Assembly (NCBI GenBank): GCA_019135865.1
Contig: JAGVVD010000011.1
Coordinates: forward strand, 1-64,000
Direction: 5' to 3'
DNA from: Elusimicrobiota bacterium
Lineage (GTDB): Bacteria > Elusimicrobiota > Elusimicrobia > Elusimicrobiales > UBA9959
Length of the DNA: 64,000 nucleotides
The notes below the pieces were generated by a model that did not search any database, was not told where the DNA came from, and saw nothing but the letters and a program-made list of their open reading frames with translations. Below are positions 36,938-56,534 of the stretch, in pieces; position 1 is the first letter of the stretch; the number at the start of each line of letters is the position of its first letter. A program made the translations under genes and the position numbers.

Positions 36938-38812
<1,875 letters not shown>

Positions 38813-38815
38813 CCG

Positions 38816-39640
38816 ATGCAGTTCAAAACCTACCTGCTCAACGCGCTGGACATCTTCGCGGTATACTACCTCGTATACCGCCTGATCCTGCTCATAAAGG
38901 GCACCCGCGCCATGCAGGTGGTCTGGGGCGTCTTCATCCTGGCCGTCATCACCTCGCTGGCCAAGCTGCTGCATTTCTCGGCCACGGTCTGGCTGCTGCA
39001 GCAGTTCTGGCTGGCCGGTATCTTCCTGCTCATCGTGGTCTTCCAGCCTGAGATCCGCTTCGCGCTGGCCAATATCGGCGCGAACCCGCTGGGCCGCATC
39101 CTGGTGCCGCAGGAGTACCGGTTCATAAGCGAGCTCGTCTCCGCCGTCCGGCAGGCCTCCGAGACGAAGACCGGCATGCTGGTCGTGCTGGAACAGGACA
39201 TGGGCCTGCGCGACATAATCGAGAGCGGAACGCGCATAAACGGCGAGGTCTCCACGGACCTGCTGCTGACCATCTTCCACCCCAAGACCCCGCTGCACGA
39301 CGGCGCCGCGGTCATCGCCAATAACCGCATCGTGGCCGCCGGCTGCATCCTGCCGCTCACCGAGCAGCAGGAGCTCTCCAAGATACTCGGCATGCGGCAC
39401 CGCGCCGCGCTGGGCCTCAGCGAGATAGCCGACGCGATCGTGGTGGTGGTCTCCGAGGAGAACGGGACGGTCTCGCTGGCGCGCAACGGCAAACTGCAGC
39501 GCCACGTGGACACGGCCGACCTCGAAAAGATGCTTTACGAGCTCTACCGCTCCAAGGCGGAGAAGACGCTGCTGCGCAGGAGCGCCAGGCCGGAGGCCGC
39601 CGGCCGGCCGGAGTCCGGACAGGAGGGGGCCGGTAAATGA
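38816..39640 (+). CDS. cdaA: Diadenylate cyclase CdaA
   Basis: 274 residues. Three N-terminal membrane helices (to about residue 85) and the DAC domain with the D162-G-A and R194-H-R motifs that bind ATP and catalyse c-di-AMP formation. c-di-AMP controls potassium and wall homeostasis in many bacteria. In its classical cluster cdaA is followed by cdaR and glmM; here a 31-residue CdaR-like peptide follows (ATGA overlap) and glmM lies 15 kb away. Confidence 0.95.
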   Translation: MQFKTYLLNALDIFAVYYLVYRLILLIKGTRAMQVVWGVFILAVITSLAKLLHFSATVWLLQQFWLAGIFLLIVVFQPEIRFALANIGANPLGRILVPQEYRFISELVSAVRQASETKTGMLVVLEQDMGLRDIIESGTRINGEVSTDLLLTIFHPKTPLHDGAAVIANNRIVAAGCILPLTEQQELSKILGMRHRAALGLSEIADAIVVVVSEENGTVSLARNGKLQRHVDTADLEKMLYELYRSKAEKTLLRRSARPEAAGRPESGQEGAGK

Positions 39641-39732
39641 ACTTCCGGGAACTTTTCACGCTCAACTGGGAGATAAAGCTCCTTTCGCTGGTGATAGCGC
39701 TGCTGATCTGGTATTTCATAGTGGGGGGCTAG
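39637..39732 (+). CDS. CdaR-like transmembrane micropeptide (31 residues)
   Basis: A 31-residue frame, MNFRELFTLNWEIKLLSL at the start and ending LLIWYFIVGG, overlaps the cdaA stop by ATGA. It corresponds to the N-terminal anchor of CdaR/YbbR proteins (NWxxKLLSLxxAxxLW), after which full CdaR has several YbbR domains. The reading frame beyond the TAG shows no YbbR sequence. Either a remnant left when the sugar locus was inserted, or a functional minimal partner of CdaA. Upstream AGGAGG fits its ATG. Confidence 0.7.
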   Translation: MNFRELFTLNWEIKLLSLVIALLIWYFIVGG

Positions 39733-39740
39733 ACCGGCGC

Positions 39741-40244
39741 ATGGACGAGGGGAACCGCTGGACCCGGAAAGTGCTGGCCCTGGAGGAGCTGGCCTCCGAA
39801 CTCGCCCGGCTCAAGGCCGCGGGCCGCAGGATCGTCCTCTGCCACGGCTGTTTCGATCTCATGCACCCCGGGCACATAATGCACTTCCAGGCCGCCCGGG
39901 ACATGGGGGACGTGCTGGCCGTGACGATAACGCCCGACGAATTCGTCAACAAGGGGCCGGGCCGCCCGGTCTTCGAGGCCCGGCTGCGCGCCGCCAGCGT
40001 GGCCGCCCTGGAATGCGTGGATTTCGCGGCCGTGAACAGGTGGCCCGATCCAGTCGAAACGATAAAACTGCTCCGTCCCGACATATACGTCAAGGGGCAG
40101 GAGTACGAGACGGACGCGCGCAAGCGCGCGGAACTGGAGAAGGACCTGGAGGCCGTGGCCGCGGTGGGCGCCCGGATGGCCTTCACCCGCGAGAAGGTCT
40201 ATTCCTCCACCAAACTCATCGGCGAGCATTACGGGAAGAAATGA
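39741..40244 (+). CDS. HldE C-terminal-like nucleotidyltransferase (sugar 1-phosphate adenylyl/cytidylyltransferase)
   Basis: 167 residues. The nucleotidyltransferase HxGH motif appears as GCFDLMHPGHIMHFQ, and YSSTKLI near the end resembles the ISSTxI element. In LPS biosynthesis the homologous domain of HldE activates heptose 1-phosphate. First gene of the sugar locus, 8 nt after the CdaR-like stop; overlaps the next gene (ATGA). The nucleotide (ATP or CTP) and sugar are not decided by sequence. Confidence 0.85.
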   Translation: MDEGNRWTRKVLALEELASELARLKAAGRRIVLCHGCFDLMHPGHIMHFQAARDMGDVLAVTITPDEFVNKGPGRPVFEARLRAASVAALECVDFAAVNRWPDPVETIKLLRPDIYVKGQEYETDARKRAELEKDLEAVAAVGARMAFTREKVYSSTKLIGEHYGKK

Positions 40245-55127: not shown

Positions 55128-56534
55128 ATGAAGAAACTTTTCGGCACCGATGGCATAAGGGGCCTGGCGGGCAGGCATCCCTTCGAACCCGATTTCGTCA
55201 GAAAGATAGGTTTCGCCGCCGCCAAAGTCTCCCTGGCGCGCCTCAACGGCTCCCGCAAGGCGAAACCCTCCGTCATCATAGGCATGGACTCGCGCGGTTC
55301 CGGCCCCTCCATAAAGGCCGCGCTCGCGGAAGGACTGGCCGCCGGCGGCTTCGAGATCCTCGACCTGGGGCTCATTCCGACCCCCGCCGTCTCCTACCTC
55401 GTGAAGAGGGAGGGGGCCGACCTCGGCGTGGTCATCTCGGCCAGCCACAATCCGCCGGAATTCAACGGCATCAAGTTCTTCTCCGCCGAAGGGCTCAAGC
55501 TCTCCGACGCCGACGAGGCGTCCGTGGAGCGGCTGCTGGCCTCGCCGGACTTTTCGGCCCCGTCCGCCGCGCCCGGGATCAGGAGGTCTGATTTCTCCGC
55601 CGACTACGAGGAGTTCCTCCTCTCCACTCTGCCGGCCGGTTTCAGCCTGAAAGGCGTGAAGGTGGTCCTGGACTGCGCCAACGGCGCGGCCAGCGAGCTG
55701 GCCCCCAGGATCTTTAAAAAACTCGGCGCGGAGATAAGGGTCCTCGGCGCCAGCCCCGACGGGACCAATATCAACGTCGGCTGCGGGGCGCTGGAGACCG
55801 GCCCGATGCGCGCCGAGACCGCCGCCTGGGGCGCCTGGTGCGGCGTCAGCTTCGACGGCGACGCCGACCGCTGCATGCTCTCCGACGAGAAGGGCCGCCT
55901 GCTCGACGGGGACGACATAATCTCGATAGCCGCGCCGCACCTCAAGGCCGGCGGCAGGCTCAGGAATTCCAGGGTCGTGCTGACCCTGATGTCCAACTGC
56001 GGCCTGATAAAGCATCTCCATTCGCTGGGCATAGGCGTGACGCAGGTCGCCGTCGGAGACAAGAACGTGACCGAGGCCATAGAGAAAGAGGACCTGAGCC
56101 TTGGCGGCGAATCCAGCGGGCACACGATCTTCCGCGAGTTCGCCCCGACGGGCGACGGCCTGCTGACGGCGCTGCAGGTGCTGGCCGCGGCCCGCGAGGA
56201 CGGCCGGCCCATGAGCGCGCACGCCGCCTGGAAGCGCTTCCCGCAGGAGGTCCGTTCGCTGAAGGTGGAGTCCAAGCCCGCGCTGGAGACCATCCCCGGC
56301 TTCCCGGAGATGATAGCGGAGTGGGAGCGGCGCATGGGCGGCGAGGGCCGCATCTTCGTCCGCTATTCCGGGACCGAGCCGCTGCTGCGCGTGCTGGTGG
56401 AGGGGGAGGACGGCGTTCTGGTCAAAGAGATCGCCGAAGGGATAATAGGGTTTTACGGCAGGAATTCCGGCCGCGCCGCGGCCGGCGGCGCCCGAGGGGG
56501 CGCGCAGAGCCGGGATATCGTGGAGGGGAAATGA
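55128..56534 (+). CDS. glmM: Phosphoglucosamine mutase
   Basis: 468 residues; interconverts glucosamine 6- and 1-phosphate for UDP-GlcNAc. MKKLFGTDGIRGLAG, the phosphoserine S106 in ISASHNPPEFNGIKFFS, the metal loop DGDADRC and the sugar motif GGESSGH are all present. The last ~20 residues are a Gly/Ala/Arg extension. In many bacteria glmM follows cdaA-cdaR; here it is separated from them by the sugar locus and starts its own unit, glmM-pdxJ(-glmS). Confidence 0.97.
   Translation: MKKLFGTDGIRGLAGRHPFEPDFVRKIGFAAAKVSLARLNGSRKAKPSVIIGMDSRGSGPSIKAALAEGLAAGGFEILDLGLIPTPAVSYLVKREGADLGVVISASHNPPEFNGIKFFSAEGLKLSDADEASVERLLASPDFSAPSAAPGIRRSDFSADYEEFLLSTLPAGFSLKGVKVVLDCANGAASELAPRIFKKLGAEIRVLGASPDGTNINVGCGALETGPMRAETAAWGAWCGVSFDGDADRCMLSDEKGRLLDGDDIISIAAPHLKAGGRLRNSRVVLTLMSNCGLIKHLHSLGIGVTQVAVGDKNVTEAIEKEDLSLGGESSGHTIFREFAPTGDGLLTALQVLAAAREDGRPMSAHAAWKRFPQEVRSLKVESKPALETIPGFPEMIAEWERRMGGEGRIFVRYSGTEPLLRVLVEGEDGVLVKEIAEGIIGFYGRNSGRAAAGGARGGAQSRDIVEGK

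Follow-up and report, generated by a model that had tools for sequence, protein, structure and literature searches.

A frame of only 31 codons, overlapping the end of cdaA in the 64,000-nucleotide stretch of Elusimicrobiota DNA analysed here (the window), raises the question whether so short a reading frame is a gene at all and, if it is, what its product does for the enzyme encoded in front of it. CdaA makes the second messenger c-di-AMP, and CdaR in its canonical form consists of a single N-terminal membrane helix, which binds the membrane helices of CdaA, and of the extracytoplasmic YbbR domains that follow it. The explanation considered fairly likely is that the frame encodes a CdaR consisting of the helix alone (“micro-CdaR”), which serves CdaA as a membrane subunit and has lost the YbbR domains; its topology, its binding and its effect on c-di-AMP are inferred. 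The features concerned are the following:

36938..38812, forward strand: ftsH, directly 5' of cdaA, named from the ORF translation without a profile scan
38816..39640, forward strand: cdaA, membrane diadenylate cyclase of 274 aa with an N-terminal membrane domain and a DAC domain
39621..39626, forward strand: Shine-Dalgarno sequence AGGAGG of the micropeptide, read from the sequence, with a spacing of 10 nt to the ATG
39637..39640, forward strand: ATGA, where the micropeptide start overlaps the cdaA stop and couples the two genes, read from the sequence
39637..39732, forward strand: putative micro-CdaR, 31 aa (MNFRELFTLNWEIKLLSLVIALLIWYFIVGG), stop codon TAG, a helix-only CdaR with the conserved face K14, S17, A21 and W25
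39741..40244, forward strand: nucleotidyltransferase of the RfaE2/HldE-C type, named from the ORF translation without a profile scan
55140..56444, forward strand: glmM, the gene that stands third, after cdaA and cdaR, in the canonical operon (TIGR01455 match above cut-off, 461 bits)

The cyclase gene is securely identified, as its product matches TIGR00159 (E 1.3e-66, above cut-off) and both PF02457 and PF19293 (DAC plus CdaA_N) above their cut-offs. The initial annotation had described a 31-residue ORF with a Shine-Dalgarno sequence, an ATGA overlap with cdaA and no YbbR sequence after the stop, all of which is confirmed in the sequence, downstream frames included. The nucleotidyltransferase gene starts 8 nt past the micropeptide stop, and glmM is also in the window, about 15 kb further downstream. 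In the profile scan the micropeptide matched no Pfam or NCBIfam family, and PF07949 (YbbR) had no match anywhere in the genome (2.95 Mb, listed as 100% complete). Frameshifting or readthrough into a hidden YbbR domain is excluded, since none exists in the downstream frames or the genome and the downstream genes vary; among close relatives, other genes stand 3' of the micropeptide in L003, L006, L017 and L018.

Whether the frame is a gene can be answered from the 40 nearest Elusimicrobiota loci found in a search with the CdaA of the window. A peptide of 31-35 aa and of the same sequence type is encoded 3' of cdaA with an intact frame in all 40, either directly after cdaA or no more than about 120 nt away in 39 of them, where it has 31-33 aa, and about 0.3 kb downstream in the fortieth (L037), and a start overlapping or closely spaced to cdaA is common. 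An alignment of 38 copies gives a median dN/dS of 0.17, with none of 272 pairs above 1; between the window and its relative L001, 12 of 22 synonymous sites differ and only 1 of 71 nonsynonymous sites. Codon position 3 is the most variable in the aligned copies, while the two other frames lack such a bias. The micro-ORF is therefore a genuine conserved coding gene, far beyond chance, and a chance ORF or debris is excluded by the conservation across relatives together with dN/dS. The initial annotation would have been overturned by absence or decay of the frame in sister genomes, as judged by synonymous and nonsynonymous rates, and it withstood that check. The gene is short enough for annotation to miss.

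The same data bear on the idea that the frame is a leader or coupling peptide acting in cis, in which translation rather than the product would control the downstream gene. Tight coupling and small size would suit such a role, which is nevertheless refuted by dN/dS and by the fusion of the peptide to CdaA in some loci, and is scarcely credible: it is the amino-acid sequence that is under selection, the downstream gene varies, and no unusual RNA fold was found at the micro-ORF (z 0.3). As the fold is not unusual, RNA structure provides no explanation for the conservation, and an RNA element is excluded as the identity of the locus.

The reach of the peptide, which includes part of the Verrucomicrobiota, is well beyond what the window alone shows. 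Among 295 Elusimicrobiota genomes, CdaA is present in 194 and matches to the peptide profile in 142 (E<=0.05), with PF07949 in 4 only; three of these four matches share the open frame of CdaA (G004, G087, G274), and the fourth genome (G009) has no CdaA match. When 160 Elusimicrobiota cdaA loci were examined, the helix was beside or inside cdaA in 149, as a separate micro-ORF in 104 (mostly 25-48 aa) and fused to the C-terminus of CdaA in 45 (41 in frame by HMM and 4 divergent ones, in f8 and f17, placed by eye). About ten of the 45 fusions also contain a single YbbR-like domain (f8, f6, f14, f4, f17), and in none of these 160 loci was a separate CdaR with YbbR domains found next to cdaA. Eleven loci have no helix at cdaA. 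Eight of them belong to three small groups without a detectable CdaR helix, in which cdaA is followed by gyrB (f22; L112, L170, L185, L215) or by glmM (f5, L211 and L222; f10, L225); these groups keep CdaA without the helix, which is thus not strictly required for every CdaA. The remaining three comprise G008 (L263), where the peptide is encoded directly upstream of glmM and cdaA is on another contig, and two f7 loci, one a second copy in G261 and the other from G214, whose fetched stretch is short.

The neighbouring family f2 (G003, G007, G010, G016 and others) is mostly without CdaA and without a convincing peptide, and in G129 of this family a peptide lies at a contig edge. In the small f15 genomes G106, G110 and G114, cdaA is broken or partial and the peptide match is absent, so that cyclase and peptide seem to have been lost together. 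The micro-ORF holds the cdaR slot, 3' of cdaA and often right before glmM, which comes next after the peptide in many loci of f15, f16 and the Verrucomicrobiota.

Most of the Verrucomicrobiota loci fetched carry a form of 44-72 aa that overlaps or follows cdaA, often with glmM next, and L064, L065 and L278 have it as a fusion with CdaA. The micro or helix-fused form occurs in 24 of 115 Verrucomicrobiota genomes and PF07949 in 68, and the two exclude each other without a single overlap (P 4.6e-12); this value ignores relatedness and therefore describes the sample and is no test of independent events. In many members of the phylum (L042-L054, L058) the overlap of the genes is long, the micro-ORF starting in another frame about 60-120 nt ahead of the cdaA stop, and the CdaA tail in these loci looks like low-constraint sequence. 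Elsewhere in the phylum (G317, G388, G401 and others) a distant DAC protein with frames of about 450-480 aa replaces the typical CdaA.

Fusion of the helix alone to CdaA, without YbbR, arose several times, namely in f7, in f1 (L202/L246), at least twice in f15 (L190/L198 and L239) and in Verrucomicrobiota (L064/L065, L278). There is also a second, divergent Elusimicrobiota CdaA clade in which one chain comprises CdaA, the CdaR helix and one YbbR-like domain (L137, L144, L146, L147, L150, L196, L247, L261, L262), several of these YbbR-like domains falling below Pfam detection; G004 has such a fusion plus a separate cdaA with a micro-ORF. In a CdaA tree of 124 sequences the helix-only f7 fusions are nested among these longer fusions, which suggests that YbbR was lost and the helix kept, with the reservation that the root of the clade is not firmly placed. 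The Verrucomicrobiota micro-forms fall within a group that also contains genomes with full CdaR, apart from the Elusimicrobiota main clade. As a single origin of the separate micro-form in both phyla is not rejected (p-AU 0.18), the number of YbbR losses is unsettled, and the Verrucomicrobiota form may have a separate origin or share descent with that of the Elusimicrobiota.

It could be argued that a functionless, decaying remnant of cdaR is all that is left, given that only the first CdaR helix survives and that three groups have no helix. This is refuted, and next to nothing speaks for its revival, in view of the strong purifying selection, the intact frames in the nearest loci, the retention across the phylum and the repeated fusion. 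The proposal of the initial annotation that the frame is a functional helix derived from CdaR, kept rather than left as debris, has gained support from the same observations.

The likeness to CdaR itself lies in a register, N-x(3)-K-x(2)-small-x(3)-small-x(3)-W, which runs through 254 sequences of micro-ORFs, fusions and full CdaR. Small residues occupy +3 and +7 in 252 of them and make up no more than 28% at any other position; the register was set partly by the lysine at 0 and the aromatic residue at +11, and the small residues were not used. In each of the three classes conservation follows a period of 100 degrees, which places the constrained residues (K0, small+3, small+7, W+11) on one helix face. 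A profile built solely from helix-only peptides (A4) finds the N-terminal helices of long proteins in 25 of 119 genomes from the phylum of the planctomycete G295 and in 38 of 98 from the phylum of G307, the best match to an N-terminal CdaR helix in these two phyla having an E of 4e-10. Of 30 matched loci examined there, 29 adjoin cdaA, and all 30 continue for about 190-340 residues past the helix, as full-length CdaR does; no micro-form was found among them. Measured against what defines a CdaR, the micropeptide has the N-terminal CdaR-type membrane helix (profile match, shared face) and the position directly 3' of cdaA, in the window and in relatives, and it fails on the extracytoplasmic YbbR domain (PF07949), the stop coming after residue 31. 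Because this defining domain is absent, it is not classed as a CdaR/YbbR protein; it is a helix-only variant and probably works as the CdaR helix does.

The shortness of the motif counts against this reading and leaves room for a membrane micropeptide partner of CdaA of independent origin that came to resemble the CdaR helix by convergence, all the more as membrane helices often contain small-xxx-small packing motifs. Such an origin is improbable and already disfavoured: the genomic slot is identical to that of cdaR, the whole register is common to full CdaR, the helix-only profile is specific in picking out CdaR N-termini next to cdaA, and the f7 helix-only fusions sit inside a clade of CdaA-helix-YbbR fusions.

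The partner of the peptide has to be inferred, as no binding data exist. The natural fusions to CdaA support CdaA, if indirectly. The peptide might instead mainly serve another protein, for example as a membrane tether for GlmM or in presenting CdaA to the FtsH protease, in line with ftsH upstream in the window, with the peptide next to glmM in G008 and with the genomes G355 and G367, in which it is 0.8-1.3 kb from cdaA but adjoins glmM. This must be rated quite unlikely, since the fusions are to CdaA, the window has no glmM next to the peptide, close relatives differ in the downstream gene, and GlmM binds the cytoplasmic DAC domain with no further factor needed (PMC8573169). CdaA and CdaR make contact via their membrane domains, which two-hybrid data place in the membrane region of CdaA (PMC6368335, PMC8573169, PMC10243994), and according to one review AlphaFold models of streptococcal CdaA-CdaR fusions suggest TM1 of CdaA as the partner. 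The simplest reading is that the peptide supplies the CdaA-contacting helix and nothing else. Both AF2 models, one of a readthrough fusion (L023) and one of a natural fusion (L154), have a helix at the peptide, with moderate pLDDT (about 68-83), and the Foldseek matches listed concern the DAC domain only. No covariation between CdaA and the helix was found above control (MI, within-family permutations, 250 pairs).

A helix-only CdaR would act as follows. In Elusimicrobiota and part of Verrucomicrobiota the YbbR domains would have gone and the helix alone been left, made in step with CdaA through an overlapping or nearby start or through fusion to the CdaA C-terminus. It is predicted to insert N-in/C-out, a likely but inferred topology that fits its fusion to the cytoplasmic C-terminus of CdaA. 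The face formed by K0, small+3, small+7 and W+11 could then pack against the CdaA membrane bundle, so that the subunit would probably set the stability, orientation or oligomer geometry of CdaA, with extracytoplasmic sensing via YbbR dropped. In the absence of expression or binding data, topology, direct binding to CdaA and the direction in which c-di-AMP synthesis is affected remain inferences, and sequence alone does not reveal whether the peptide raises, stabilises or restrains CdaA. The “minimal regulator of CdaA” of the initial annotation has indirect support as far as the partner is concerned, whereas regulation has not been demonstrated: without an extracytoplasmic domain a constitutive membrane subunit is more likely than a regulator, as the retention of the helix without YbbR also suggests. 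Published accounts call the way in which CdaR itself acts on CdaA unclear or unknown (PMC8573169, PMC10243994).

Large lineages that keep the helix alone under strong selection, or welded to the enzyme, amount to a natural truncation experiment, which suggests that the helix is the essential part of CdaR. The wider claim, that the helix is the functional core of CdaR everywhere and an obligate CdaA subunit, with YbbR as an optional sensor that was given up on more than one occasion (in the Elusimicrobiota main clade, the f7 fusions and the Verrucomicrobiota) or attached to the enzyme again, is tentative, and doubt slightly outweighs belief. The four face residues K14, S17, A21 and W25 are targets for testing, and a 31-residue peptide offers a minimal system for structures of full-length CdaA. 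The PDB holds a CdaA-DAC/GlmM complex (9g69); a full-length CdaR had no sequence match there, and no solved membrane complex was found. No earlier description of a helix-only CdaR was found in the literature searched, from which subscription papers and preprints were mostly missing.

Among known systems, CydX and KdpF are small single-helix subunits of membrane enzymes, and the micropeptide resembles them as a helix of about 30-40 aa that is encoded with a membrane enzyme and presumed to pack on it. Unlike them, it descends from, or matches, a longer partner (no sequence relation to them was examined). That partner, CdaR (YbbR), likewise follows cdaA, often before glmM, and has a single N-terminal helix with N, K0, small+3, small+7 and W+11; the micropeptide lacks its extracytoplasmic YbbR domain and has 31 aa as opposed to roughly 230-350 aa. 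The streptococcal CdaA-CdaR fusions (PMC10243994) unite CdaA with the CdaR helix in a single polypeptide, as do f8, f14, f6, f4 and f17, whereas in f7, L202, L246, L190, L198, L239, L064, L065 and L278 it is the helix alone, without YbbR, that has been joined to the enzyme.
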